Shown here piece after piece: positions 2,902-60,316 of a stretch of 64,000 nt of DNA (its first letter is position 1; every line of letters starts with the position of its first letter). The stretch covers positions 1,027,418-1,091,417 of the forward strand of contig NZ_FNHW01000001.1 in assembly GCF_900103485.1 (NCBI RefSeq). Direction: 5' to 3'. The notes under the pieces were generated by a model. The model was not told the DNA's origin. It ran no database searches and saw nothing but the letters and a program-made list of their open reading frames with translations. The DNA comes from Fictibacillus solisalsi (GTDB taxonomy: Bacteria; Bacillota; Bacilli; Bacillales; Fictibacillaceae). Made by a program: the position numbers and the translations under genes.

Positions 2902-3999
2902 ATGAGTAGCGAGCTATTAGATGCACTTACTTTTTTGGAGAAAGAAAAAGGAATCAGCAAAGATATTTTAATTGAAGCGATTGAAGCCGCTTTGATTTCT
3001 GCGTACAAACGGAATTTCCACCAGGCACAGAATGTGAGAGTGGATTTTAATACAACAACAGGAAGCATCAAAGTATTTGCCCGCAAAAACGTTGTAGAAG
3101 AAGTAACCGACCCGAGGCAGGAGCTTTCACTTGAGGAAGCACACAAGATTAACCCGCAATATGAATTGGATGATGTTGTGGAACTGGAGGTAACTCCACG
3201 TGATTTCGGCCGTATTGCGGCCCAAACCGCAAAACAGGTTGTGACTCAAAGGGTAAGGGAAGCGGAACGCGGCATTATTTTTTCCGAGTTTATCGATCGC
3301 GAGGAAGATATCATTACAGGTGTGGTACAGCGTCAGGACCATCGTTACATCTATGTGAACCTTGGACGTGTTGAAGCCTTGCTTCCTGCTGCTGAACAAA
3401 TGCCTGGTGAGAAATATACAACAAACGACCGTATTAAAGTTTTCATTACCAAGGTTGAAAAAACAACGAAGGGCCCACAAATTCTTGTATCAAGAACACA
3501 CCCTGGTTTATTAAAGCGCCTATTCGAACTCGAAGTGCCGGAAATCTATGATGGTACCGTTGAGGTAAAATCGATTGCCAGAGAAGCGGGAGACCGTTCC
3601 AAGATTGCCGTACATGCAGCAGACCCGGAAGTGGATCCAGTAGGATCTTGTGTCGGTCAAAAAGGCGGACGCGTCCAAACGATCGTTAACGAGCTCAATG
3701 GCGAAAAAATTGATATTGTCCGGTGGTCTGAAGACCCGGTTGTGTATGTAGCAAACGCGCTCAGCCCAGCCAAGGTGCTTGAGGTGCTTGTGAATGAAGA
3801 AGAAAAAATGACGACCGTTATCGTTCCCGATTACCAGCTTTCCCTTGCTATCGGGAAACGAGGGCAGAATGCAAGACTTGCAGCTAAACTAACTGGCTGG
3901 AAAATTGATATTAAAAGTCAGTCCGATGCAGAAGAATCCGGACTTTATAATGGTGAAGCTGCACAAGAAGAGTTTGAACCTACTGAAGAAGAACTGTAA
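2902..3999 (+). CDS. nusA: Transcription termination/antitermination factor NusA
   Basis: 365-residue NusA, which binds RNA polymerase and nascent RNA and modulates pausing and termination. Domain order is the N-terminal polymerase-binding domain (about 1-125), S1 domain (about 135-200), KH1 with GQKG at 252-255 and KH2 with GKRG at 318-321, then a short acidic tail rich in glutamate. It lacks the proteobacterial C-terminal repeats, as is normal for Firmicutes. Start ATG 2902 has AAAGGGGAG seven bases upstream; the nearby ATG at 2898 is out of frame. It is co-transcribed with rimP and followed by ylxR 21 bases downstream. Confidence 0.98.
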   Translation: MSSELLDALTFLEKEKGISKDILIEAIEAALISAYKRNFHQAQNVRVDFNTTTGSIKVFARKNVVEEVTDPRQELSLEEAHKINPQYELDDVVELEVTPRDFGRIAAQTAKQVVTQRVREAERGIIFSEFIDREEDIITGVVQRQDHRYIYVNLGRVEALLPAAEQMPGEKYTTNDRIKVFITKVEKTTKGPQILVSRTHPGLLKRLFELEVPEIYDGTVEVKSIAREAGDRSKIAVHAADPEVDPVGSCVGQKGGRVQTIVNELNGEKIDIVRWSEDPVVYVANALSPAKVLEVLVNEEEKMTTVIVPDYQLSLAIGKRGQNARLAAKLTGWKIDIKSQSDAEESGLYNGEAAQEEFEPTEEEL

Positions 4000-4020
4000 A
4001 GATACATGGGGGTGAGCCGG

Positions 4021-4278
4021 ATGAAAACACGGAAAATTCCGATGAGGAAATGTGTAGCCTGCCAGGAAATGAAAGAAAAAAAGCAATTGATCCGGATTGT
4101 CCGCTCTCCTGAAGGCGAAGTTTTCGTTGACCCAACGGGGAAAAAATCAGGAAGAGGCGCATATCTGTGCAATCAGGCGTCCTGCTTTGCCCTGGCGAAG
4201 AAAAAAGGCAGCCTCAACAATCAACTGAAAGCCCAGGTTCCGGATGAAGTGTTTGCTGAACTGGAAAAGGGAGTATAA
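4021..4278 (+). CDS. ylxR: YlxR-family RNA-binding protein (RnpM type)
   Basis: 85-residue protein of the YlxR/DUF448 family. Visible signatures are [25 protein letters not shown] near the N-terminus (in two halves, [10 protein letters not shown] and KKQLIRIV) and [15 protein letters not shown], the basic RNA-binding loop. In B. subtilis this family has been linked to binding and modulating RNase P RNA; that role is known for the family and not shown here. Start ATG 4021 follows GGGGGTGAG at about 4008-4015; a longer ATG start at 4006 has no site of its own. It sits between nusA and ylxQ, the usual place. Confidence 0.93.
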
Positions 4279-4282
4279 CCTA

Positions 4283-4585
4283 TTGAATATATCACCATGG
4301 GCTTCATTGCTTGGATTGGCCAACAGGGCAGGGAAATGCATCTCAGGGGAAGAGCTTGTTGTTAAAGCGGTACAGAAGCAACAGGCGAAATGCGTTCTTC
4401 TCTCCCAGGATGCATCGGACAATACGAAGAAAAAAATAACAGATAAATGCTCGTTTTACCGGGTAGAGGTAAAATGGATAGAGAACCGCTATTCTCTTGG
4501 TAATGCGATTGGTAAGGACCAGCGCGTGGTTGTTGCCGTAACCGATCAAGGATTTGCAAAAAAGTTAACAGCTTTACTTGATTAA
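4283..4585 (+). CDS. ylxQ: L7Ae-family K-turn RNA-binding protein YlxQ
   Basis: 100-residue L7Ae/L30e/S12e/Gadd45 fold protein (YlxQ, also called RplGA), which binds kink-turn [35 protein letters not shown] and [15 protein letters not shown] are family signatures. The likely start is TTG 4283, four bases after the ylxR stop, with AAGGGAG at 4267-4273; this reproduces the usual 100-residue length. An upstream in-frame ATG at 4244 would overlap ylxR and adds a non-conserved tail. Operon member between ylxR and infB; biological role in Bacillus remains unclear. Confidence 0.9.
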
Positions 4586-4604
4586 ATCATTCGGGGGTGA
4601 ACAT

Positions 4605-6845
4605 ATGAGTAAGATGCGTGTATATGAATATGCGAAAAAACAAAATGTTCAAAGCAAGGATATCATTGATAAACTGAAAAACATGAATGTGGATGTATCC
4701 AATCATATGTCGATGATCGATGAAGAAGCGATCCGAAAATTAAATGATGCCTATCAACCCAAAAATAAGAAAACAGAGGAGAAACATAAAATAGAACATA
4801 AAAAGAACCCATCCAATGTAAACAAAGTCGAAAATAGAAATGAGAGTAAAAAAGAGAACACTATGAAAATTAAAAAAGACGAAGCACCCAAGAAGAATAA
4901 TGGCAGCAATAACTCAAAACCGGGTCAAAAAAATAACAGCGGTCAGCAAAACGCTAAACCCGGCCAAAAAGGCGGAAACCGACCGGGGAACAGAAACAAC
5001 AACAGCAATCATAATAATAAAAACCGAAACAACAAAAACAACAACAGAGGTAAAATTGCTCCCGCTCCTCAGCCGAAGCCGACTCCGGTAACACCTGATA
5101 AGATTACTTTTTCCGAATCGCTTACTGTAAGTGAATTGGCGAAGAAACTGGTAAAAGAACCATCTGAAATTATTAAAAAATTGATGACTCTTGGTGTTAT
5201 GGCAACAATCAACCAAGAGCTTGATAAAGAAACCATTGAGCTCATTGCGGCAGATTACAATGTAGAAGTCGAAGAAGAAATCATCATCGACGTAACGGAA
5301 TTTGAGAATTACGAAAATAACGATAAAGAAGAGGATCTTACTATTCGTCCACCGGTGGTTACGATCATGGGCCACGTTGACCATGGGAAAACGACCTTGC
5401 TGGACTCCATACGAAACACAAAAGTAACCGCAAGTGAAGCAGGCGGGATTACTCAGCATATCGGTGCGTACCAGATCGAAGACAAAGGCAAGAAAATTAC
5501 GTTCCTCGATACTCCGGGGCATGCTGCGTTTACAACAATGCGTGCCAGAGGAGCACAAGTAACGGATATCACAATTCTTGTGGTTGCCGCCGATGATGGT
5601 GTTATGCCGCAAACCGTTGAGGCCATTAACCATGCTAAAGCTGCAGAAGTGCCTATTATTGTTGCCGTAAACAAAATGGATAAGGAAGCAGCCAATCCTG
5701 ACCGGGTTATGCAGGAACTGACCGAGCATGCCCTGATTCCGGAAGACTGGGGCGGCGATACCATTTTTGTTAATGTATCTGCGATTAAAGGGGAAGGAAT
5801 CGACGACTTAATCGAAATGATTCAGTTGGTGGCGGAAGTCGAAGAACTGAAAGCCAATCCAAACCGTGCAGCACAGGGTACGGTTATTGAGGCACAGCTT
5901 GATAAAGGCCGTGGATCAGTAGCTACGCTTCTCGTTCAAAACGGAACATTGAATGTCGGGGATCCGATTGTTGTCGGAAATACTTTCGGACGTGTTCGTG
6001 CCATGGTCAACGATATCGGACGACGTGTAAAAGTAGCAGGTCCATCTACTCCAGTTGAGATAACTGGATTAAATGATGTACCTCAGGCGGGCGATCAATT
6101 CATGGTATTTACCGATGAAAAGAAAGCACGCCAAATCGGTGAAGCACGCTCGAAAAAACAATTGGAAGCCCAACGTAAGGAATCTTCCAAATTGAATCTT
6201 GAAGATCTGTTCAATCAGATCAAAGAAGGCGATATCAAAGAAATCAATGTAATTATTAAAGCAGATGTTCAAGGCTCCGCCGAGGCGCTGGCCGGTTCCC
6301 TTCAAAAAATTGATGTGGAAGGCGTCAAGGTAAAGATCATTCATACGGGAGTAGGAGCGATAACTGAATCGGATATTATTCTTGCTTCTGCATCCAATGC
6401 GATTATTATCGGATTTAACGTACGCCCTGACAACAATGCTAAACGTACAGCAGAGGCTGAAAAAGTGGATGTACGTCTGCACAGAATCATTTATAACGTG
6501 ATTGAAGAAATTGAGTCAGCGATGAAAGGTATGCTTGACCCAGAGTTCGAAGAGAAGGTTATTGGACAGGTGGAAATCCGTACAACGTTTAAAGTATCAA
6601 AAGTCGGTACCATTGCCGGCTGTTATGTAACGGATGGTAAAGTTACCCGTGATTCTACCGTTCGCCTGATCCGAGATGGCGTTGTTATCTATGAAGGGAA
6701 AATTGATGCCCTCAAACGTTTTAAAGATGATGCAAAAGAAGTTAGTGCAGGCTACGAATGTGGTATAACATTAGAAAAGTTCAATGACATTAAAGAAGGA
6801 GATGTCATCGAAGCGTACATCATGGAAGAAATTAAACGGCCATGA
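4605..6845 (+). CDS. infB: Translation initiation factor IF-2
   Basis: 746-residue IF-2, the GTPase that brings initiator tRNA to the 30S subunit and promotes subunit joining. The N-terminal IF2N motif ([17 protein letters not shown]) is followed by a long lysine- and asparagine-rich linker (about 45-165), a second IF2N domain, and the G domain with GHVDHGKT at 256-263, DTPGH at 302-306 and NKMD at 356-359, then domains II-IV. Start ATG 4605 follows GGGGGTGA at 4593-4600; it matches the family N-terminus, whereas the longer in-frame start at 4578 overlaps ylxQ. The stop overlaps the ylxP start (ATGA). Confidence 0.98.
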
Positions 6846-7120
6846 TTGGTTTCCTGACTGTGGAATGCTTCATTTATGAGTCCCATTCCCTGAAGGATAA
6901 ACGCTCCGTTGTGAAAAAGGTCGTTACCCGGATAAGACAGCAATTTAATCTTGCTGTCTCCGAGACCGACTTTCATGATTTATGGCAGAGAACAGAACTT
7001 GGAATTGTAACCATTTCAAAGGACAAACTAATCGTGGAACAGGAACTTCAAAGGGCTATAAAATTGATCAGCAGTATTCCTGAGCTCGAAGTTACGTCTT
7101 CGGTTATCGAATGGTTATAA
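6842..7120 (+). CDS. ylxP: YlxP, DUF503 family protein
   Basis: 92-residue DUF503 protein. The conserved parts are [23 protein letters not shown] at the N-terminus ([11 protein letters not shown] is the family core) and [16 protein letters not shown] in the middle. It has a small ferredoxin-like fold in solved homologues and no firmly assigned function. The start codon overlaps the infB stop by four bases (ATGA), which implies translational coupling, and rbfA follows 26 bases later. Position inside the IF-2/RbfA operon suggests a role near ribosome assembly; this is inference only. Confidence 0.92.
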
Positions 7121-7146
7121 TGGCTAGATAGAAACGGGGTGTAAGA

Positions 7147-7518
7147 ATGAGTGAGATCCGATCCAACCGCATTGGAGAACAAATGAAAAAAGAACTGGGA
7201 GATATCATCGGCCGAAAGCTGAAAGATCCCCGCATAGGGTTTGTGACCGTTACCGGTGTCGAGGTGACGGGTGACCTGCAGCAGGCGACTGTATTTATTT
7301 CTGTTTTTGGTGATGATGAACAAAAGGAACAGACGCTGCGGGGTCTGGCCAAGGCTTCTGGTTTTATCCGAACTGAAATCGGCAAGCGAATCCGGTTGCG
7401 CAAAACGCCGGAAATTTCTTTTAAATTCGATGAATCCATCGAATATGGAAGCCGAATTGAGACATTGCTGACCGATATCAAAAGTTCGGATGAAGATAGT
7501 GATTACAATAAGAGATAG
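7147..7518 (+). CDS. rbfA: 30S ribosome-binding factor RbfA
   Basis: 123-residue cold-shock ribosome maturation factor with a KH-type fold that binds 16S rRNA helix 1 during late 30S assembly. The sequence has the family N-terminus [17 protein letters not shown], the [18 protein letters not shown] strand pair, and [19 protein letters not shown]. Start ATG 7147 has an ACGGGGTG site. It closes the rimP-to-rbfA operon; its stop codon lies in the 5' arm of a terminator-like hairpin. Confidence 0.96.
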
Positions 7519-7550
7519 GCAGGCCTTGGTTTGTCTGTCTCTTCTTTTTT
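7511..7550 (+). terminator. Putative terminator after rbfA
   Basis: An 11-base-pair stem (agagataggca with tgtctgtctct, two G-U pairs) with a ten-base loop, followed by ttcttttttg. The rbfA stop codon TAG lies in the 5' arm. I see no strong promoter before truB, so this may be a leaky terminator that lowers truB-ribF expression rather than a full stop. Confidence 0.65.
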
Positions 7551-7577
7551 GATGTATAAAAAGGTGGGTACCAACAA

Positions 7578-8501
7578 ATGGCAGGAATACAGCCAGAAGG
7601 CATTTTGCCTTTATTAAAACCGGCGGGAATGACATCCCATGACTGCGTGGCAAAGTTAAGAAAAATGCTGAAAACGAAAAAAGTGGGACATACGGGCACG
7701 CTCGATCCCGAAGTGACGGGCGTGCTTCCCGTCTGTGTCGGAAGAGCAACAAAAATTGCACAGTATATGTCCGACTATCCAAAATCCTATCAGGCGGAAG
7801 CCATGATCGGAAAAGCGACAACCACAGAGGATGCCCATGGCGATGTGGTGGAAGACAAGCCTGTCCCTGAGGGGGTGTCAGCTGAAGCTGTTAAAGATGC
7901 GCTGGTCTCACTGACAGGAAGAATCATGCAGGTTCCACCCATGTTTTCGGCTGTCAAAGTGAATGGTAAAAAGCTGTACCAATATGCAAGAGAGGGAATT
8001 GAAGTGGAAAGGCCGGCAAGGGAAACGACGATTTACGAGTTAAATCTTCTTTCAGAGGATGCATACTTTTTTGGCCCCTATCCCGTTTTCCCTTTCTTTG
8101 TCAGCTGCAGCAAAGGAACCTATGTAAGGACACTGGCGGTGGACATTGGGAAAAAACTGGGATATCCCGCCCACATGTCTCACTTGGTCCGCACCAGCTC
8201 AGGACCTTTTGATATGGGGGACTGCTTTACATTTGAACAGATTGAGCAGGCCATTCAGGATGGCAATACGAACGACCTTTTTCTTCCCATTGAAAAAGCC
8301 ATTGCACATTTTGACGCGATCACCTGTGATGAGGAGATGGAAGTGCGCATAAAGAATGGTGCCGTTCTCCCTATGGTATCTGAGGTGCAAAGCACACCGT
8401 TTGCCGTTTATAATAAACATGGAAAATGTATCGCTCTTTATAAACAACATCCGGAGAAACCAGGTATGATGAAACCGGAAAAAATTTTAGCCGTTGAGTA
8501 A
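7578..8501 (+). CDS. truB: tRNA pseudouridine(55) synthase TruB
   Basis: 307-residue enzyme that makes pseudouridine 55 in the T-loop of tRNAs. The catalytic aspartate is D43 in GHTGTLDPEVTGVLPV; other family blocks are GRIMQVPPMFSAVKVNGKKLYQYAR and CSKGTYVRTLAVDIG, and a C-terminal PUA-like part (about 235-307) binds the acceptor arm. Start ATG 7578 follows AAGGTGGG at 7561-7568. It precedes ribF by 24 bases, the same pair as in B. subtilis. Confidence 0.97.
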   Translation: MAGIQPEGILPLLKPAGMTSHDCVAKLRKMLKTKKVGHTGTLDPEVTGVLPVCVGRATKIAQYMSDYPKSYQAEAMIGKATTTEDAHGDVVEDKPVPEGVSAEAVKDALVSLTGRIMQVPPMFSAVKVNGKKLYQYAREGIEVERPARETTIYELNLLSEDAYFFGPYPVFPFFVSCSKGTYVRTLAVDIGKKLGYPAHMSHLVRTSSGPFDMGDCFTFEQIEQAIQDGNTNDLFLPIEKAIAHFDAITCDEEMEVRIKNGAVLPMVSEVQSTPFAVYNKHGKCIALYKQHPEKPGMMKPEKILAVE

Positions 8502-8525
8502 CACACAGAGTTAGAAGGTGGAGTT

Positions 8526-9464
8526 TTGAAAACAATAACGCTTACACATCCGCATCAATTCAATAAGTATGACCTTCCCCCAACCGTCATGGCCCTGGGG
8601 TATTTTGACGGCTTGCATCTTGGGCACCAGAAGGTAATTGGGACGGCAGCCGCCATTGCCCGGCAGGGAAATATGGCATCGGCAGTGATGTCCTTTCATC
8701 CGCATCCATCTGTGGTGCTTGGAAAAAAGGAAGCCCATGTCTCATATTTGACGCCAATTGAAAAGAAAAAGGAACTTTTGCATGAGCTCGGGATTGATAT
8801 CTTCTATCTTGTAGAGTTTAATGAAGAGTTTGCCTCTCTCTCACCCATGAGGTTTATTGAGGAATATCTTATTGGTCTTCATGTACAGCATGTTGTTGCA
8901 GGATTTGACTATACGTTCGGTAAATTTGGCAAAGGAAACATGGCCATGATGGAGGAAAGTGCCGGGGGTGCATTTTTTCAAACGGTGATTGAAAAGTTGG
9001 AGAAAAATGGACAGAAAATCAGTTCTACGCTTATTCGTAACTTGCTGAAGGATGGAAACATTGACGACATTCCCGAATATCTAGGAAGGCCGTACAGCAT
9101 TTCCGGTAAGGTGGTACACGGGGAGAGCAGAGGAACCTCCATTGGCTTTCCAACGGCCAATATTGATCCTCTTCCTGATTATTTAATACCCTCCAACGGA
9201 GTTTACATTGTACAGGCTGAAGTGGATGGTCGCCTATTGAATGGAGTAGCCAACATCGGCACCAAACCGACCTTTCATGAAAAGCGGGAGGCGTCAATCG
9301 AAGTGCATCTTTTTGATTTTTCCTCTAATATCTACGGTAAGGATGTGGAAGTATACTGGCTCTCCAGAATCAGGGACGAGAAAAAGTTTGAATCCGTGGA
9401 TGCCCTTATCGAACAAATTGGCGCAGACAAACAGGCAGGCATAAATTATTTTTATGAAAAGTAG
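8526..9464 (+). CDS. ribF: Bifunctional riboflavin kinase / FAD synthetase
   Basis: 312-residue enzyme (RibC in B. subtilis) that phosphorylates riboflavin to FMN and adenylates FMN to FAD. The N-terminal nucleotidyltransferase domain shows ALGYFDGLHLGHQKVI (HxGH-type), SFHPHPSVVLG and ISSTLIR; the C-terminal flavokinase domain (about 185-312) shows GESRGTSIGFPTANI and GVYIVQAEV followed by NGVANIGTKPTF. The start is a TTG at 8526 behind AGAAGGTGGAG at 8513-8523 and gives the family N-terminus MKTITLTHPHQF. The protein also sets FMN pools sensed by FMN riboswitches elsewhere. Confidence 0.97.
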   Translation: MKTITLTHPHQFNKYDLPPTVMALGYFDGLHLGHQKVIGTAAAIARQGNMASAVMSFHPHPSVVLGKKEAHVSYLTPIEKKKELLHELGIDIFYLVEFNEEFASLSPMRFIEEYLIGLHVQHVVAGFDYTFGKFGKGNMAMMEESAGGAFFQTVIEKLEKNGQKISSTLIRNLLKDGNIDDIPEYLGRPYSISGKVVHGESRGTSIGFPTANIDPLPDYLIPSNGVYIVQAEVDGRLLNGVANIGTKPTFHEKREASIEVHLFDFSSNIYGKDVEVYWLSRIRDEKKFESVDALIEQIGADKQAGINYFYEK

Positions 9465-10413: not shown

Positions 10414-12534
10414 ATGGAACAAGAGAAACGTATTTTTTCTATGGACTGGGCAGGCAGAGAACTGTCTTTTGAAATTGGAAATCTTGCAAAGCAAGCGAAC
10501 GGAGCTGTATTTGTCAGATATGGTGATACTGCCGTTCTTTCTACAGCTGTGGCTTCAAAGGAGCCAAAGAACTTAAGCTTTTTCCCGCTTACAGTAAACT
10601 ACGAAGAGCGTCTGTACGCGGTTGGTAAAATTCCTGGCGGATTTATCAAGAGGGAAGGCCGCCCGAGCGAGAAAGCCATTCTCGCCAGCCGTCTGATTGA
10701 CCGTCCAATCCGTCCGCTTTTTGCTGATGGCTTCCGAAATGAAGTTCAGGTGGTCAGCACAGTGATGAGTGTAGACCAGGATTGTTCTTCAGAAATGGCT
10801 GCGATGATTGGATCATCTCTTTCATTGTCCATTTCAAACATCCCGTTTGAAGGGCCGATTGCCGGGGTCACTATTGGCCGTATCGATGGCGAATTTATCG
10901 TGAATCCAACGGTTGAACAGAACGAGAAAAGCGACATTAATCTTATTGTAGCAGGCACAAAGGATGCCATTAATATGGTAGAGGCTGGAGCCAAGGAAGT
11001 TCCTGAAGAAGTCATGCTAGAAGCGATCATGTTCGCCCACGAGGAAATCAAGAAATTGATTGCCTTCCAGGAAAAGATCGTAGAAGAGCTCGGAAAGGAA
11101 AAAATGGAAGTCGTGCTGCACGAAGTTGATCAAGAGCTTGTGGAGGAAGTGCGCAGCTTTATCGGTTCCGATTTGGCAGCGGCTGTTTCTGTTTTTGATA
11201 AGCAGGAACGACAGAGTGCGCTTGATGAGTTAAAAGAACGAGTGGTTGCTCATTATGAAGAAACCGATGAAGAAAAGGTGGATGAAGCCAAAGAAGTGCT
11301 TCAGCTTCTGATCAAAGGTGAAGTTAGACGACTTATTCTAAAGGAAAAAGTTCGTCCGGATGGAAGAAAGATCAATGAGATCCGCCCACTCTCCTCTGAT
11401 GTCAGCCTTCTGGCCCGTACGCATGGATCCGGGCTGTTTACACGCGGCCAAACTCAAGCATTGAGCGTTTGTACGCTTGGAGCATTGGGAGATGTACAGG
11501 TTCTTGACGGTTTGGGTGTGGAAGAATCCAAGCGCTTCATGCATCAATATAACTTCCCTCCATTCAGTGTTGGCGAAACCGGCTTTATGAGAGGACCGGG
11601 ACGCCGTGAAATCGGACATGGTGCGCTCGGGGAACGTGCTCTTGAAGCCGTCATCCCGTCTGAAGAAAGCTTCCCTTACACCATCCGACTTGTGTCTGAA
11701 GTTCTTGAATCCAACGGTTCCACCTCTCAGGCGAGCATTTGCGCAAGTACACTTGCTATGATGGATGCAGGTGTTCCCATTAAAGCTCCTGTAGCAGGTA
11801 TTGCGATGGGCTTAGTAAGCGACGGTGAAGATGTAACGGTTCTTACCGATATCCAGGGAATGGAAGACCATTTGGGAGATATGGACTTTAAAGTTGCCGG
11901 TACTGAAAAAGGTGTTACAGCATTACAGATGGATATTAAAATCTCCGGGATCAATCGTGAGATCTTGGAACAGGCTCTGACTCAGGCAAAAGAAGGGCGA
12001 ATGCACATCCTTTCCTCGATGCTTGACACACTGTCTGAACCAAGAAAACAACTGTCTACTTATGCTCCAAAAATTATAACAATGAAAATCAATCCGGATA
12101 AAATCAGAGACGTTATTGGGCCAAGCGGAAAAGTCATCAATAAGATTATTGAAGAAACCGGCGTGAAAATTGACATCGAGCAGGACGGCACTGTATTTAT
12201 CGCATCCGCCGACCAGGCGATGAACGAAAAAGCGCAAAAAATTATTGCTGATCTTGTTCGTGAAGTGCAAGTGGGCGAGTACTATGATGGTAAAGTGAAA
12301 CGCATTGAAAAGTTTGGTGCTTTCGTTGAACTCTTCGCTGGAAAAGACGGGCTTGTTCACATTTCTGAAATTGCCGAGGAGCGAATCGGCAAAGTGGAGG
12401 ATGTACTTAAACTTGGAGATATCATTCGCGTCAAGGTTACCGAGATTGACAACCAGGGACGTGTAAATCTTTCAAGAAAGGTTGTTTTGAAAGAAGAAAA
12501 GAAAGAACAGGAACAAAAGAATAGCGAACAATAA
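10414..12534 (+). CDS. pnpA: Polyribonucleotide nucleotidyltransferase (PNPase)
   Basis: 706-residue 3'-5' phosphorolytic exoribonuclease, trimeric, main mRNA-decay exonuclease in Bacillus. Two RNase PH domains (about 10-225 and 310-545) flank a helical linker; the second carries [21 protein letters not shown] and the [10 protein letters not shown] metal region. KH follows with GPSGK from residue 569 and then an S1 domain (about 620-690), with a lysine/glutamate tail. Start ATG 10414 lies 11 bases after GAGGAG; the upstream in-frame TTG at 10390 precedes that site and is rejected. It is separated from rpsO by a terminator and has its own promoter. Confidence 0.98.
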
Positions 12535-12556
12535 TCAAAACCGGTTTTGGACTGTA

Positions 12557-12603
12557 ACCCCTATTCCAATAATAGGGGTGCCGTTCATTACAACGGTTTT
12601 TTT
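12557..12603 (+). terminator. Double hairpin terminator of pnpA
   Basis: Two consecutive stems: acccctatt/aataggggt (loop ccaat, 12557-12579) and ccgtt/aacgg (12581-12596), the latter running into seven T residues. The second is the terminator proper; the first may protect the 3' end. Confidence 0.85.
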
Positions 12604-12656
12604 GTTTGTGATAAAGTTTGAAAATGCCATTATAGAGCATGGGCTCCATGTTCTAA

Positions 12657-12692
12657 CCCTCCCGGATTGGACATACCTTTTTAATGGGAGGG
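12657..12692 (+). promoter_or_regulatory. Possible ribosome-site-masking hairpin before ylxY
   Basis: CCCTCCC at 12657-12663 is exactly complementary to GGGAGGG at 12686-12692, which is the ribosome-binding site of ylxY. The intervening loop is 22 bases. If the upstream arm is transcribed, the site would be sequestered. Confidence 0.4.
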
Positions 12693-12699
12693 AAGTGAG

Positions 12700-13689
12700 A
12701 TGAAGAGAAATCTGCTGCATATGAGCATGATGGCCCTGATCTTTGCATTTGCTGTAGGTATGGTGCAAAACCCGTTTACCTCCACGTATGTTGATAAGAT
12801 GAAGGACCAGACGGCGGCGGTGTCCAAAATGCAGGGAAACAGCCTGTACGAACAGCTTCAGCAAAAATCGCCATCTTACCATAAAGCACCCATCGATGCA
12901 AAAATCGACAGGGTGTGGAAGGCGATCCCAGGTTATAACGGCATGGAACTGGATATTGATGCTTCGTACAAAAAATTAAAAGGAAGCAAAACGATCGACG
13001 AGAAAAAACTGGTGTTTAAACAAATTCCGCCAAAAGTGAAGCTGCAGGATCTGCCGCCTTCACCAATCTATAAAGGGAACCCCGAAAAACCCATGGTAAC
13101 GCTGCTTGTGAATGTGGCATGGGGTAATGAATACTTGCCTAAACTTTTAAAGATCATGAAAAAGTCCCATGTTCATACCACTTTTTTTCTTGACGGGTCG
13201 TGGGTCAAGAAGAATCCAAGTCTCGCAAAAATGATTCTGGATGAAGGGCATGAAATCGGAAACCATGCGTATACCCATCCGGATATGAAGCGATTGACAA
13301 ACAAGCGTATCAGGGAAGAGCTTGTCAGCACCAATCAAGTGATACAGGCGACGCTTGGAGACAGGAATAAAGTTCCTGTAAAATGGTTTGCACCGCCAAG
13401 CGGATCTTATCGAGATGACGTCGTTAAAATTGCTGCTGAAGAAAAAATGAGAACGATCATGTGGTCGGTGGACACGGTAGACTGGAGGAAGCCGGATCCG
13501 GGGGCAATGGCCCAGTCGGTGATAAGAAAACTGCATCCGGGAGCCATGATCCTTATGCATCCCACGTCATCAACTGCTGATGGCTTACAGCAAATCATCG
13601 ACGGCATTAAAGCAAAAGGATACGCTATTGGAACGGTAAGCGACCTGATGGATGAAAAACGCCTATACCTCAAGTCATCCGCTGAATAA
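12700..13689 (+). CDS. ylxY: YlxY-type polysaccharide deacetylase-like protein (probably non-catalytic)
   Basis: 329-residue exported protein with an N-terminal hydrophobic signal or anchor (about 8-24) and a NodB-fold domain (about 125-310). The NodB motif 1, normally TFDDGP, is replaced by VNVAWGNEYLP, so the catalytic and metal-binding aspartates are absent; motif 2 (NHAYTHPDM) is kept and WFAPPSGSY stands where R-x-PYG is usual. HPGAMILMHPT matches the C-terminal motif. Such degenerate YlxY proteins are conserved beside mlpA in Bacillus. Start ATG 12700 uses GGGAGGG at 12686. Function unknown; deacetylase activity is doubtful. Confidence 0.88.
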   Translation: MKRNLLHMSMMALIFAFAVGMVQNPFTSTYVDKMKDQTAAVSKMQGNSLYEQLQQKSPSYHKAPIDAKIDRVWKAIPGYNGMELDIDASYKKLKGSKTIDEKKLVFKQIPPKVKLQDLPPSPIYKGNPEKPMVTLLVNVAWGNEYLPKLLKIMKKSHVHTTFFLDGSWVKKNPSLAKMILDEGHEIGNHAYTHPDMKRLTNKRIREELVSTNQVIQATLGDRNKVPVKWFAPPSGSYRDDVVKIAAEEKMRTIMWSVDTVDWRKPDPGAMAQSVIRKLHPGAMILMHPTSSTADGLQQIIDGIKAKGYAIGTVSDLMDEKRLYLKSSAE

Positions 13690-13694
13690 CATTG

Positions 13695-13723
13695 TTGTAT
13701 GATAGGTATGTTAATGATATATT
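13695..13723 (+). promoter_or_regulatory. Sigma-A promoter of mlpA
   Basis: TTGTAT at 13695-13700, 17-base spacer, TATATT at 13718-13723, directly after the ylxY stop. No terminator separates ylxY from mlpA, so read-through is also likely. Confidence 0.6.
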
Positions 13724-13761
13724 GTTCCTAGAGATGGAATTACAGCTAGGGGGAAACAGGT

Positions 13762-15000
13762 TTGATTACTAGACATACGTGTCCAAACGGCGTGAGGGTC
13801 GTTTTGGAAAAGATTCCAACTGTCCGTTCCGTTGCGATCGGGGTATGGATCGGCACAGGTTCACGGTTTGAAGTTCCCGAAAATAATGGGGTTTCTCACT
13901 TTTTGGAGCACATGTTCTTTAAAGGAACAGCAACCCGAAGTGCAAGGGAAATCGCTGAATCATTTGACAGCATTGGCGGCCAGGTCAATGCGTTTACTTC
14001 CAAAGAATATACATGCTACTATGCAAAGGTACTCGATACTCATGCACCGAGAGCGCTGAATGTACTGTCCGATATGTTTTTTAACTCTGCCTTTGATGAG
14101 CAGGAGTTGTTAAAAGAAAAGAATGTCGTGCTCGAAGAGATTAAAATGTACGAAGATACTCCAGATGATATTGTTCATGATCTTCTCAGCAGGGCAAGCT
14201 TTCATCAGCATTCTCTCGGTTATCCGATTCTTGGTACGGAAAGTACGCTGAATACATTTACAGGGCAAACCCTACGCAATTATATGAAAGACTACTACAC
14301 ACCTGAAAATGTGGTGATTTCAGTGGCCGGGAATGTAGAAGAGAGCTTTATTAAGGAAATAGAAGATCTCTTTGGAAGCTATTCAGGCAGCCAGGCGGCT
14401 TCACGCCTGAATGCACCTGGCTTTCACAGTCAAAAGATTGCCCGCAAGAAGGAAACCGAACAGGCTCACCTTTGCCTCGGGTTCCCAGGGCTGTCCCTGA
14501 AAGACCCGGACACCTACTCTCTGATTGTGCTGAATAATATTTTTGGATCAAGCATGAGCAGCCGGTTGTTCCAGGAGGTTCGTGAGCAGCGCGGACTGGC
14601 CTACTCCGTGTTCTCCTACCATTCGGCTTATCAGGACAATGGTTTGTTTACAATTTATGGAGGGACGGCTCCCAATCAGCTTGATGAGCTGTATGATACC
14701 GTGAAGATGATTGTCAATGATCTTCAAGATAAGGGGATCACTGATAAAGAGCTGGTCAACTCCAAGGAACAAATCAAAGGCAGCTTGATGCTTAGTCTCG
14801 AAAGCACCAACAGCAGAATGAGCAGAAACGGAAAGAATGAGCTCATTTTGAATTACCATCGTTCACTCGATGAAATGGTTCAATTGATCGACGGGGTGAC
14901 AAAAGAAACGGTCGATTCACTGATTGAAAAAATATTCAGCAAGGAATGCTCCGCATCCCTTGTCAGCCCGACCGGTGAACTTCCAAAAGGATTGCAATAA
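13762..15000 (+). CDS. mlpA: M16 family zinc metalloprotease MlpA (YmxG)
   Basis: 412-residue pitrilysin-family (M16B) peptidase, homologous to mitochondrial processing peptidase beta. The inverted zinc motif HxxEH is intact as H46-F-L-E49-H50, followed by the third ligand region ENVVLEEIKMYED type (KEKNVVLEEIKMYEDTPDD). C-terminal inactive lobe includes RGLAYSVFSYHSAYQDNG. Start is TTG 13762 with an AGGGGGA site at 13748-13754, giving MITRHTCPNGVRVVLE. In B. subtilis ymxH follows; here a repeat-bearing gap follows instead. Confidence 0.95.
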   Translation: MITRHTCPNGVRVVLEKIPTVRSVAIGVWIGTGSRFEVPENNGVSHFLEHMFFKGTATRSAREIAESFDSIGGQVNAFTSKEYTCYYAKVLDTHAPRALNVLSDMFFNSAFDEQELLKEKNVVLEEIKMYEDTPDDIVHDLLSRASFHQHSLGYPILGTESTLNTFTGQTLRNYMKDYYTPENVVISVAGNVEESFIKEIEDLFGSYSGSQAASRLNAPGFHSQKIARKKETEQAHLCLGFPGLSLKDPDTYSLIVLNNIFGSSMSSRLFQEVREQRGLAYSVFSYHSAYQDNGLFTIYGGTAPNQLDELYDTVKMIVNDLQDKGITDKELVNSKEQIKGSLMLSLESTNSRMSRNGKNELILNYHRSLDEMVQLIDGVTKETVDSLIEKIFSKECSASLVSPTGELPKGLQ

Positions 15001-15001
15001 A

Positions 15002-15067
15002 GCCTGCAGCATGTCAGCTGCACCCTCAATGGCAGGGTGCAGCCGACATAAGCTGGAGGTTTTTTCT
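15002..15067 (+). terminator. Terminator of mlpA
   Basis: A long stem with the perfect core GCTGCACCCT/AGGGTGCAGC (loop caatggc), extended by TGTC/GACA and then by cctgcagc/gctggagg with one mismatch, before a six-T run. Seen in sequence. Confidence 0.85.
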
Positions 15068-15097
15068 TTTCATGTTTTCATTGCATCTTCATTGATG

Positions 15098-15215
15098 GAT
15101 TGGAGTAGAAGCTGCGATATCCTTGAAATGAACGTCATATTTTCTTTGTGTGATGCTCCGTTTCTGAAGTCTTCCTTGTCCTCCGGAAAACGAGCATCTG
15201 AAACGGAAACCAATC
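15098..15215 (+). repeat. Dispersed intergenic repeat, copy B
   Basis: Bounded by GATTGG (15098-15103) and CCAATC (15210-15215), an inverted terminal pair. The 5' part reads GATTGGAGTAGAAGCTGCGA and the 3' part CGGAAAACGAGCATCTGAAA. Both match the ends of copies A and C, and the internal tgaacgtcatattttcttt block matches copy A. Confidence 0.65.
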
Positions 15216-15392
15216 ACTAAAATAGCTAAAAAGATTACAAATACATGGATTCTTATTTTCCAATGGTAGACGGTAAAATAGGCTTGGACCTAGGTTGTCT
15301 ACTCAATCCCCAATCTTTTTCCTGAATATAATGATAGAGCAAATGAGAACGAATAACCGATTTTATTACTGTTGACTCCGGATTGGCACAGT

Positions 15393-56361: not shown

Positions 56362-56589
56362 ATGAAGCAAGCGATCAATATCCAGGATCAGTATTTGAAC
56401 CAATTACGACGGGAAAATATCTATGTGACTGTATATTTACTAAATGGTTTTCAACTTAAAGGGCTGGTGAAAGGGTTCGATAACTTTACGGTCATCCTGG
56501 AATCAGAAGGAAAACAACACTTAATATACAAGCATGCCATCTCAACTTTCACGCCTCATCGTCCGGTGGAGCTGCCGGCTGAAAATTGA
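56362..56589 (+). CDS. hfq: RNA chaperone Hfq
   Basis: 75-residue Sm-like hexamer-forming RNA chaperone. Sm1 ([25 protein letters not shown] in parts: [20 protein letters not shown]) and Sm2 (LIYKHAIST) are intact, preceded by the N-terminal helix [15 protein letters not shown]. Start ATG 56362 has GAGGAGG at 56346-56352; an in-frame ATG at 56344 overlaps miaA. It has the short C-terminus typical of Bacillus Hfq. Confidence 0.97.
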
Positions 56590-56613: not shown

Positions 56614-56648
56614 AAAAAACCTTGCTGAACGTTCAGCAAGGTTTTTTT
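56614..56648. terminator. Bidirectional terminator between hfq and the recombinase-like gene
   Basis: Perfect palindromic stem aaaaaaccttgctgaac with its complement, A run on the left and seven T residues on the right. It closes hfq and the convergent minus-strand gene, whose stop codon touches it. Confidence 0.94.
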
Positions 56649-57624
56649 ATGTTGGTATTACCTGTAGGTAATTATAGTATCGGCGAAGGCTTAAGGGGGA
56701 CCTGAATCCATACTTCGTTTTCATGGTTTCAAAATCGAGTCCAGCCTTTACATCATTCAGGATGCACGTTCTCCTCAGATGCTGTGCAGATATCCCCTTG
56801 CGTAAACCGGATCTCTCAATTTCCAGCCGGATCATTTTTTGTACCGCAATCTCGGTGAGCGGTTTAGGGGAATGTGTTTTGTATACCCATCGGTAGGTTC
56901 CCCGCTGATAGTCAAAAGCGGCCAGGAAGTGATCGTTGGAATACCATGCCGGACGAACGGCCTGCGGGATGGTCTCATAATAGGAATAAAGCAACGTCTG
57001 GTCATTTTTCTCTAATGGTATTTCTCGGGTAAGGCTCGTTTCTGAGGGAACATGCACATACCCTTTTGTGAAGTTGATATGTTTCATTTTGAGTGAGGTG
57101 AGTTCATGCAGTGTTAATCCATAATACGCAAGCAACATAATGATTGACTGGTTGCGGTCGATCAGCATGTGGCGGTATTTTTGCTGATTTTCCGTCAGGC
57201 CCTTATACGAACGGACGGTTTCAAACAGCTGTTGAAGCTCATCACTTGTGATGAAGTCTTCTTCCGTAAAGCAAGCGTCGTCCTTTGGACCGATTTCAAC
57301 GCCGCTTACCGGATTGAAAGAAAGGTTCCCCAAACTGATCTGAAACTGGACGAGTTGCTTGAGCACTGTCAGCACACGCTGAAGAGTGCGAAGCGAATAA
57401 TGACGTTCCTTCATTAAAAAATCAAAGTACGATTGAAAGTCTTTGGTTTGCAGCGACTGAAAGACTGAAAAACTGTCCTCTTTTTTGACGACGCGCATCC
57501 AGGCCAAAAAGTCATTCACATCATAAAAATATCGCCTGATGGTACTTTCCTGTCTGCCTTTCTTCTCCAATGCTTCTAAATAAACAGCCGAATAGCGTGG
57601 CAAGGAATCGATTAGCGGAAACAT
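56647..57624 (-). CDS. Tyrosine recombinase-fold protein lacking most catalytic residues
   Basis: 325-residue protein with the two-domain layout of XerC/XerD-type integrases: an N-terminal SAM-like core-binding domain (about 8-105) and a C-terminal domain (about 125-320). By alignment from memory with XerD, only Arg II (R284 in QHLRRT) and a C-terminal tyrosine (Y316 or Y317) are kept. Arg I is T171 in GLTLHEL, the beta-hairpin lysine is E195, the HxLRH histidines are Q281 and R285, and His III is F307. Strand exchange is therefore doubtful. Start at 57624 has ACGGAGG upstream. It has its own promoter and no phage genes around it. Confidence 0.78.
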   Translation of the reverse strand: MFPLIDSLPRYSAVYLEALEKKGRQESTIRRYFYDVNDFLAWMRVVKKEDSFSVFQSLQTKDFQSYFDFLMKERHYSLRTLQRVLTVLKQLVQFQISLGNLSFNPVSGVEIGPKDDACFTEEDFITSDELQQLFETVRSYKGLTENQQKYRHMLIDRNQSIIMLLAYYGLTLHELTSLKMKHINFTKGYVHVPSETSLTREIPLEKNDQTLLYSYYETIPQAVRPAWYSNDHFLAAFDYQRGTYRWVYKTHSPKPLTEIAVQKMIRLEIERSGLRKGISAQHLRRTCILNDVKAGLDFETMKTKYGFRSPLSLRRYYNYLQVIPT

Positions 57625-57650
57625 AGCAACCTCCGTATGGCGTTTTTTTC

Positions 57651-57659
57651 ATTATACCA
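57651..57659 (-). promoter_or_regulatory. Extended -10 promoter of the recombinase-like gene
   Basis: Minus strand TGgTATAAT with TATAAT at 57656-57651, 27 bases before the start codon; no good -35. Confidence 0.55.
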
Positions 57660-59051: not shown

Positions 59052-59362
59052 TTTCATCGTTCCTTTATTCGCAACTAACTTCAACAATAAGGCAGCTAGA
59101 AATATTAGTCAATACAATTCTTCGGTTAAATATACATTGAAATTTCTGAAAATACTGTTTATCTGAACATTTAATTCGCAATTTTTGAATAAAAATACAT
59201 TTTTAAGTATAAAGATTTAGGGTCCCGAGTTGTTCTCCAAGCCCGTATAATTGCCAGTCTCAAGAATACATTAGAATGAGGGCAGGAAAAGATAGGCATT
59301 TGTCACCCATAAACAATGTCATGCGTATATTAATTTTAGACAGCTAAAGAGAGGTGAATCTC
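59052..59362. other. YitT-spoVK divergent gap
   Basis: A 311-base AT-rich divergent intergenic region. It holds the yitT-like promoter (59084-59112, minus) and presumably the sporulation promoter of spoVK, which I could not place with confidence. No gene or repeat was recognised. Confidence 0.6.
59084..59112 (-). promoter_or_regulatory. Sigma-A promoter of the YitT-like gene
   Basis: On the minus strand TTGACT (59112-59107), 17-base spacer, TATTGT (59089-59084). Confidence 0.6.
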
Positions 59363-60316
59363 TTGCATGATTCCATGACATTTAAAAAGAAGACCCAGAT
59401 CAACATTATCCTGAACCAGAATACGGAAAGAGAAAAGTTGGAAGACGCGCCTGTTTCTGCACCAAAGGAAGGGCAACAGCTTGAAAAGCATCTTCCATTA
59501 AAAAAAATGGAACAGGAAATGTCATCATTGGTTGGCATGGAGGAACTGAAGAATTTTATTAAGGAAATCTATGCATGGCTTTATGTCAATAAATGCAGAG
59601 AAAATCAAGGGCTGAAGGTTGAAAAGCAAGTGCTTCACATGATGTTTAAGGGAAATCCGGGAACAGGAAAGACGACTGTCGCCCGTTTGCTTGGAAGCCT
59701 GTTCCATGAAATGAATGTTCTTTCGAAGGGGCACCTGATCGAGGTGGAGCGTGCGGATCTGGTCGGGGAATATATCGGCCATACCGCCCAGAAAACAAGA
59801 GACCTTCTAAAAAAGGCGATGGGCGGGATCTTGTTTATTGACGAGGCCTACTCGCTCGCCCGCGGTGGCGAAAAGGATTTTGGGAAAGAAGCGATTGATA
59901 CCCTTGTAAAAGCGATGGAAGACCAGCAGCACGATTTCATCCTGATTCTAGCCGGTTATTCGGGAGAGATGGACCGCTTCCTGAAACTAAATCCAGGTTT
60001 GCCGTCACGCTTTCCCATCATGGTCACGTTCCCCGATTACTCGGTTGATGAACTCATGGAAATCTCCAGGAAAATGGTTGCCGAACGGCAGTATATCATG
60101 GCCAAAGATTCGGAGTGGAAGCTGCGGCAGCATCTGCAACGCGTGTGTGCGGCTGGTGAAAAATCCTTTTCAAACGGTAGGTACATTCGCAACATTATCG
60201 AAAAAGCGGTGAGAAAACAATCGGTCCGGTTGTTAAAAGAGGAACGGACGGATAAAAAATCATTGATGACACTAACGGCAGACGACCTGCATCTGGAAGA
60301 GAAACAAGGAATTTGA
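59363..60316 (+). CDS. spoVK: Stage V sporulation protein K, CbbX-like AAA+ ATPase
   Basis: 317-residue AAA+ ATPase of the CbbX/SpoVK family. Walker A GNPGTGKT at 97-104, Walker B GGILFIDEAYSL, sensor 1 LILAGYSGEMD, arginine finger region PGLPSRFP. Needed for spore maturation (cortex stage) in B. subtilis; its client is not known. Start TTG 59363 has AGAGGTGA at 59350-59357; GTG 59354 lies inside the site and ATG 59375 is farther in. It precedes hflX by 41 bases. Confidence 0.93.
   Translation: MHDSMTFKKKTQINIILNQNTEREKLEDAPVSAPKEGQQLEKHLPLKKMEQEMSSLVGMEELKNFIKEIYAWLYVNKCRENQGLKVEKQVLHMMFKGNPGTGKTTVARLLGSLFHEMNVLSKGHLIEVERADLVGEYIGHTAQKTRDLLKKAMGGILFIDEAYSLARGGEKDFGKEAIDTLVKAMEDQQHDFILILAGYSGEMDRFLKLNPGLPSRFPIMVTFPDYSVDELMEISRKMVAERQYIMAKDSEWKLRQHLQRVCAAGEKSFSNGRYIRNIIEKAVRKQSVRLLKEERTDKKSLMTLTADDLHLEEKQGI

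Follow-up and report, generated by a model that had tools for sequence, protein, structure and literature searches.

The window, by which we mean the whole 64,000-nucleotide stretch of Fictibacillus solisalsi DNA that was analysed, carries on its minus strand an open reading frame that runs intact from an ATG to a stop codon and encodes a protein of 325 amino acids. The frame converges on hfq, and on its other side spoVK is the neighbouring gene in many relatives. The features of the locus are as follows.

56362..56589, plus strand: hfq, the conserved convergent neighbour (from reading of the locus)
56614..56647, no strand assigned: putative bidirectional hairpin terminator common to hfq (plus) and the integrase-fold gene (minus) (from folding energy)
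56647..57624, minus strand: integrase-fold gene without a recombinase active site, 325 amino acids, the gene studied here
56650..57264, minus strand: C-terminal catalytic-fold domain, about residues 121-325 (Pfam Phage_integrase over 124-318; alignments)
56854..56934, minus strand: family-specific conserved stretch, residues 231-257 (columns identical in 70 of 70 orthologues; short strands in the model)
57301..57624, minus strand: N-terminal core-binding (SAM-like) domain, about residues 1-108 (Pfam Phage_int_SAM_4 over 16-92; model helices between 2 and 108)
57630..57635, minus strand: putative ribosome-binding site CGGAGG (from the sequence)
57651..57659, minus strand: putative extended -10 promoter element TGGTATAAT (conserved upstream in relatives)
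59354..60316, plus strand: spoVK, the next gene on the other side in many relatives (from reading of the locus; Pfam AAA domain)

We take the neighbouring genes to be miaA, hfq, yitT, spoVK, hflX and a gene for a YhcN/YlaJ lipoprotein; Pfam confirmed the lipoprotein and the AAA domain of SpoVK, and no phage genes were found among the neighbours at the locus. Upstream of the frame lies a promoter-like extended -10 element. Among 71 relatives, made up of 70 chromosomal loci plus an IMG/VR copy, 50 have an exact TGnTATAAT in the 90 nt upstream; base-shuffled sequences gave 0.4 on average and 3 at most. A generic promoter scan that requires a -35 element did not list TGGTATAAT. The hairpin between the two convergent genes folds with -20 kcal/mol (z -6.2) on one strand and -20.5 kcal/mol (z -9.2) on the other, and a generic terminator scan called none at this site, perhaps because the stem absorbs the T run.

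Both halves of the protein scored above the Pfam cut-offs (Phage_integrase, 6.1e-11; Phage_int_SAM_4, 2.5e-7), and a structure model likewise contained the core-binding and catalytic-domain folds. An earlier sequence-only reading had described an intact frame with the two-domain layout of XerC/D-type recombinases, its own promoter and terminator and no phage context, and on each of these points the present analysis agrees. The protein shares this layout and profile similarity with XerC, XerD and XerA (NCBIfam E 1e-17 to 2e-19 for XerC/XerD), but differs from them in its lost active site, in an extra stretch at residues 238-248 and in falling far below the curated NCBIfam cut-offs: XerD 70 bits against 329.6, XerC 64.1 against 335.15, XerA 64.7 against 220, XerS 31.1 against 267 and NF002685 31.7 against 178. 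Six relatives were also far below the XerC/XerD/XerA-like cut-offs, and thus no curated NCBIfam model names the family. NF002685 is presumably a chromosomal, Xer-like streptococcal protein, XerD-like and said to lack active-site residues, which we assume to lie at a locus other than the hfq-linked one; it differs by the score given above. The host genome encodes separate, complete XerC- and XerD-like proteins, so that the gene studied here is an extra.

Active site and predicted fold

Active-site columns were placed by aligning the protein with the host XerC and XerD and with ten catalytically complete relatives; the fold search yields ranges rather than residue pairs, so residue positions rest on this sequence alignment. 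The earlier reading had assigned, by comparison with XerD, T171 to the Arg I position, E195 to the lysine, Q281 and R285 to the two histidines of HxLRH and F307 to His III, leaving Arg II (R284) and a C-terminal tyrosine as sole survivors. The alignment reproduced every one of these assignments and placed the tyrosine at Y316, such that two of six catalytic residues are kept.

The same columns were then counted in 70 chromosomal orthologues, the split frame of locus L103 being excluded. A complete set, R-K-H-R-(H/W)-Y, was present in 0 of 70, and the maximum of four residues was reached by four proteins. Arg I is lost in 67 orthologues (T in 55, S in 10, R in 3, C in 1, Q in 1), His II in 65 (Q in 56, H in 5, K in 5, M in 2, R in 2) and His III in all 70 (L in 38, F in 23, M in 8, Y in 1). 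The lysine column holds K in 13 of 70, where the alignment is loose and some lysine falls within 193-199 in 34 of 70. Arg II is invariant (R in 70 of 70), and the tyrosine column reads Y in 61, F in 6, C in 2 and H in 1, a loss in nine. In contrast, ten group-2 relatives retain 6 of 6 catalytic residues. Group 2 is a second, catalytically complete Xer-like family encountered in at least 10 of 199 genomes of the order (loci L076-L085, for example L079 at 3959-5050), and in a tree rooted on Xer its members are the nearest catalytic relatives of the family studied here.

Nine further copies, L153 of family f36 and eight of family f62, carry arginine at Arg I and lack His II as well as a histidine at the His III column, suggesting that His II was lost before Arg I. 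Seven of the eight f62 copies have a histidine one residue past the His III column; the alignment there leaves some room, and the loss in these copies is correspondingly less complete.

Conservation in the 70-orthologue alignment is dense over about residues 219-257, with columns 237, 238, 241, 243, 248, 253 and 254 invariant in 70 of 70, and within this region residues 238-248 have no counterpart in the host XerC or XerD. The stretch could be a partner- or DNA-contact element. A different use would be catalytic: the protein might still recombine DNA through a rearranged active site that employs, for example, the invariant R241 of this stretch. The 70 of 70 conservation of R241, the invariance of Arg II, the tyrosine in 61 of 70 and the f62 copies, with their Arg I and, in seven of eight, the displaced histidine, speak for such an enzyme. 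On the other side, nine of the 70 orthologues have Phe, Cys or His in place of the nucleophile and no conserved single substitute for His II and His III was seen, and we regard continued catalysis as very improbable.

An AlphaFold2 model of the protein was accepted with a pLDDT of 88.1 and a pTM of 0.63. Besides the window protein, the alignment behind this model comprised three orthologues from Fictibacillus, two from IMG/VR and four catalytic Xer-like proteins of viruses, and these last four may draw the model towards Xer; a first model from six sequences, orthologues only, had reached a pLDDT of 61. The top Foldseek match of the accepted model was XerA (E 2.6e-12). By VIA-align, the model matched XerA (Z 18.5, rmsd 11.2), Tn1549 integrase with DNA (18.4), XerH with difH (17.5) and phi3T SroF with DNA (15.2, rmsd 5.1 over 274 residues), followed by YopR/MrpR without DNA (12.9-13.3, rmsd near 16). 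The predicted structure, for which the earlier reading had proposed comparison with DNA complexes, thus resembles DNA-bound recombinases at Z 15-18.

Distribution, inheritance and selection

All 34 family genomes examined carried an orthologue; the nearest named relatives of the host are F. fluitans and F. enclensis, at 92% identity each. Across the order, 57 of 199 genomes matched at E 1e-30, and 53 remained once four had been removed (two with a group-2 protein only, L104 with an off-locus chromosomal copy and L105 with a plasmid copy), leaving the chromosomal type absent from 146 of 199. A draw of 299 genomes from the class gave 28 matches at E 1e-45, namely the host, one genome of f36 and 26 of f62. 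Family and order combined yielded a chromosomal-type match in 80 genomes, of which 71 loci were read first.

The position of the gene is largely fixed. Of the 71 loci, 69 have a convergent hfq downstream of the gene, at a distance of no more than about 0.8 kb in 68 of these and of 2.4 kb, with one ORF between, in L095; the two exceptions are L067, where hfq is about 7 kb away, and L096, with none within about 13.9 kb. The 72nd locus, L153, also has hfq. Members of f62, which appears to be Exiguobacterium, have the gene adjoining hflX in 8 of 8 loci read; at one of these loci, L160, hfq was observed as well. In 142 genomes of the order no match was obtained. Twenty of these were inspected, and in 16 hfq lay 162-834 nt upstream of the spoVK match, some with ORFs of 61 to 227 amino acids between the two; in the remaining four, hfq was not found upstream of spoVK within the stretch examined. 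On a combined SpoVK and MiaA tree (66 rows, one dropped), presence of the gene required 7 changes, compared with 17.3 when shuffled, that is, presence is clustered. Many forks of this tree are weak, and old vertical inheritance with losses fits the pattern better than repeated arrival.

As an unrelated observation on spoVK, two loci from different families, L164 (genome G075, 11017-15257) and L095 (genome G138, 5008-8685), have inserts of about 3.2 kb and 2.6 kb, respectively, that split the gene. Each insert has an ORF resembling, by eye, an aldo-keto reductase and a large serine recombinase, the latter recognised in L164 by Pfam Resolvase and Recombinase domains and in L095 by eye from the similarity of its ORF. 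Each looks like a skin-type element inside a sporulation gene.

The f62 lineage keeps the gene, and spoIVA was not found in any of six f62 genomes tested (the Bacillus subtilis control and G000 were positive), although Spo0A_C was present in all six. This retention argues against a purely sporulation role, and sporulation as sole function was not supported.

Frameshift or absence in close relatives would indicate decay, and the orthologues collected from beside hfq in other genomes give the opposite picture: every family genome carries the gene, frames are full-length in 70 of 71 loci, and the catalytic losses are common to them. The sole split copy is L103, where the adjacent spoVK is also split, which suggests a sequencing error. 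An internal stop initially flagged in L064, L069, L070 and L071 proved to be the natural gene end, giving frames of 320-327 amino acids. Purifying selection, raised in the earlier reading as a further check, was evident. The two closest comparisons with the window gene gave dN/dS values of 0.074 and 0.105, and three other pairs gave 0.093, 0.045 (dS 1.3) and 0.277 (dS only 0.04); more distant pairs were saturated and left out, limiting the estimate to these five. Ratios were thus about 0.05-0.1 in four of five pairs, similar in most pairs to those of miaA (0.065, 0.083, 0.098, 0.059 and 0.121 in the same five).

Catalytic loss is therefore a conserved state and not decay. That the gene is what remains of a decaying mobile element might be argued from its integrase fold, its plasmid relatives and the single close pair with a ratio of 0.28, yet the low dN/dS of the other four pairs, the full-length frames and the fixed position make this scarcely credible, and on the same grounds decay or sequencing error of the gene was rejected.

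Plasmid and phage relatives

Searching 72,556 plasmid records with the window protein returned 52 matches, 43 of them from Priestia. A Bacillus arachidis relative used as query returned 50 plasmid matches, including Rossellomorea, which was not listed by the first search. Arg I and His III were absent in 15 of 15 plasmid relatives read. In a quick tree rooted on Xer, the chromosomal and plasmid proteins grouped together (SH-aLRT 100), separated by a long branch from group 2 and Xer, indicating that most of the catalytic loss predates the split between the two branches. Plasmid rows nested among chromosomal rows with weak support in this tree, which took in part of the loci.

Relatives on plasmids often lie in replication or arbitrium modules, 11 of 15 being near a replication initiator or an arbitrium receptor. 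On seven Priestia rep_cluster_237 plasmids the relative is 169-180 bp downstream of the replication initiation gene in 7 of 7, and the one Priestia initiator checked is a Rep3 protein. A gene for the AimR receptor is upstream of the relative in four plasmids (two from Anoxybacillus, one from B. arachidis and Priestia pG5MAi6_3), and one relative, from Rossellomorea, is beside ParA. Three plasmids (two from Virgibacillus and the unannotated C02 record) had no initiator, AimR or ParA in the stretch read. In the four with AimR (L107, L108, L169 and L170) this arbitrium receptor gene and the dead integrase are no more than about 3 kb apart, with ParM or FtsK/SpoIIIE-domain genes nearby.

These positions raise the alternative that chromosomal and plasmid genes alike encode replication, partition or incompatibility factors, which would govern copying or segregation by binding DNA close to origins or centromeres. 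The invariant Priestia arrangement agrees with this, as does a replicase or partition gene near the relative in B. arachidis, Anoxybacillus B7M1 and Rossellomorea. The plasmid position would equally fit a repressor, however, and no origin genes were found within 14 kb around the chromosomal gene; such a factor is accordingly unlikely.

Similarity to the XerC/XerD profiles, together with the complete XerC- and XerD-like genes of the host, also invites the idea of a non-catalytic accessory subunit of these or of another recombinase, shaping dif synapsis. To our knowledge, known XerC/XerD systems need no third recombinase subunit; the gene is missing from most of the order sample, and the 14 annotated stretches read around plasmid relatives show no neighbouring site-specific recombinase, so we consider an accessory subunit quite improbable.

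Phage records offered little. A search of 50,697 produced six weak matches only (22.7-29.5% identity), the Anoxybacillus plasmid protein had no match in any phage record, and the Anoxybacillus and B. arachidis plasmid proteins had no relative in IMG/VR. Two IMG/VR contigs with 46% matches had been candidates for a phage origin; they carry spoVK, hflX and ynbB beside the gene and look like host flanks, and that origin was rejected. PHROGs annotates the protein as an integrase and nothing further, and annotated plasmid relatives are labelled integrase or tyrosine-type recombinase with a DNA-recombination term. For this family, plasmid relatives included, such labels are probably wrong.

A candidate DNA-binding regulator

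The closest known parallels are found in SPbeta-like phages. By sequence, phi3T YopR is the SroF chain of PDB 9rd5, and SroF we take, from PDB titles (9RD5), to be a dead recombinase acting as a phage repressor. The window protein resembles MrpR/SroF (PDB 8A0A, 9RD5) in its recombinase fold, in the loss of most catalytic residues, in its length of about 320 amino acids and in structural similarity at Z 13-15. According to PMC10516654, MrpR (YopR) is the master repressor of SPbeta, a monomer in solution that binds a 15-bp element and did not recombine SPbeta att sites in vitro; its Table 3 gives the tyrosine as kept and Arg I and both histidine positions as lost. The window protein thus has the tyrosine and these three losses in common with MrpR, but lacks the lysine that MrpR keeps. 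MrpR is, moreover, encoded by a prophage, whereas the gene studied here is at a chromosomal miaA-hfq-spoVK locus outside any SPbeta-like prophage. Sequence homology to phi3T SroF/YopR was not detectable by blastp (E 0.28), and no YopR chain came up when PDB sequences were searched with a profile at E 0.01. The protein probably functions like MrpR/SroF while standing outside that sequence family.

The earlier reading had proposed that a maintained but non-catalytic fold is reused as a DNA-binding or architectural factor. The conserved losses and the selection bear out a maintained, non-catalytic fold, and its predicted reuse for binding DNA is supported by the fold, a basic pI (median 9.05 in 70 orthologues), the invariant Arg II and the MrpR/SroF precedent. 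The gene may accordingly be seen as the chromosomal representative of a tyrosine-recombinase-fold family that is old, has been inherited mainly by vertical descent and no longer cuts DNA. Its core-binding and catalytic-type domains would clamp a DNA site, where the invariant Arg II could still hold a phosphate. With Arg I, His II and His III gone, phosphotyrosine chemistry would not take place, and by analogy with MrpR/SroF the bound protein would act as a regulator, most likely of transcription. Both steps, from fold to binding and from binding to regulation, are ones that we infer.

We consider a chromosomal, non-cutting DNA-binding regulator a reasonably probable reading of the gene. Several of the observations above count against it, namely the absence of the chromosomal type from 146 of 199 order genomes, the use of four catalytic viral proteins in the alignment of the good model and the low confidence of the six-sequence one, the failure to detect homology to SroF/YopR, the close pair with dN/dS 0.28, and the retention of Arg I with a displaced histidine in seven of eight f62 copies. 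By title or abstract start, no paper devoted to the hfq-linked gene was found. More speculatively, Bacilli may possess a widespread family of DNA-binding proteins that have the integrase fold but do not cut, with one branch long fixed between hfq and spoVK/hflX as a host regulator and the other in replication-partition or arbitrium modules of plasmids or phage-plasmids; the host copy might then control chromosome maintenance or confer immunity against elements carrying the plasmid branch. This wider scheme is possible, and we hold it tentatively. The gene offers a chromosomal, syntenic and testable candidate that ties a fixed host gene to plasmid replication and arbitrium modules.

A search for an operator among upstream inverted repeats gave a mean best score of 3.37 in 71 regions of 150 nt, against 3.44 in dinucleotide-shuffled sequence, and pointed to none; the window's own upstream region has a weak repeat confined to its closest relatives. 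As the MrpR motif is a single 15-bp element (PMC10516654), an inverted-repeat scan is not decisive. Many families conserve, close to the gene and upstream of spoVK (for example at L062, L072, L093 and L131), a 15-bp sequence that reads TGTGACAAATGCCTA, or TAGGCATTTGTCACA in the orientation of spoVK, and it occurs with up to 3 mismatches in 34 of 72 loci. Its distance tracks spoVK, and at the same threshold 11 of 20 genomes that lack the integrase-fold gene have it upstream of spoVK, compared with 0 of 20 on the other strand. We therefore take it as a spoVK element and rejected it as an operator of the integrase-fold gene. No motif around that gene is more widely conserved, and its attribution to spoVK also counts against a regulator.

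A narrower candidate was found in genus g2 (L013-L020 and L022-L029), where all 16 aligned species share an identical AAATATGCAAAA upstream of the extended -10 and 15 of them an identical leader, AGAGGTTATAGGAGGCAATT. The conservation of AAATATGCAAAA and the leader seems to exceed what a promoter needs, and would be consistent with a binding site for this protein or for another regulator.
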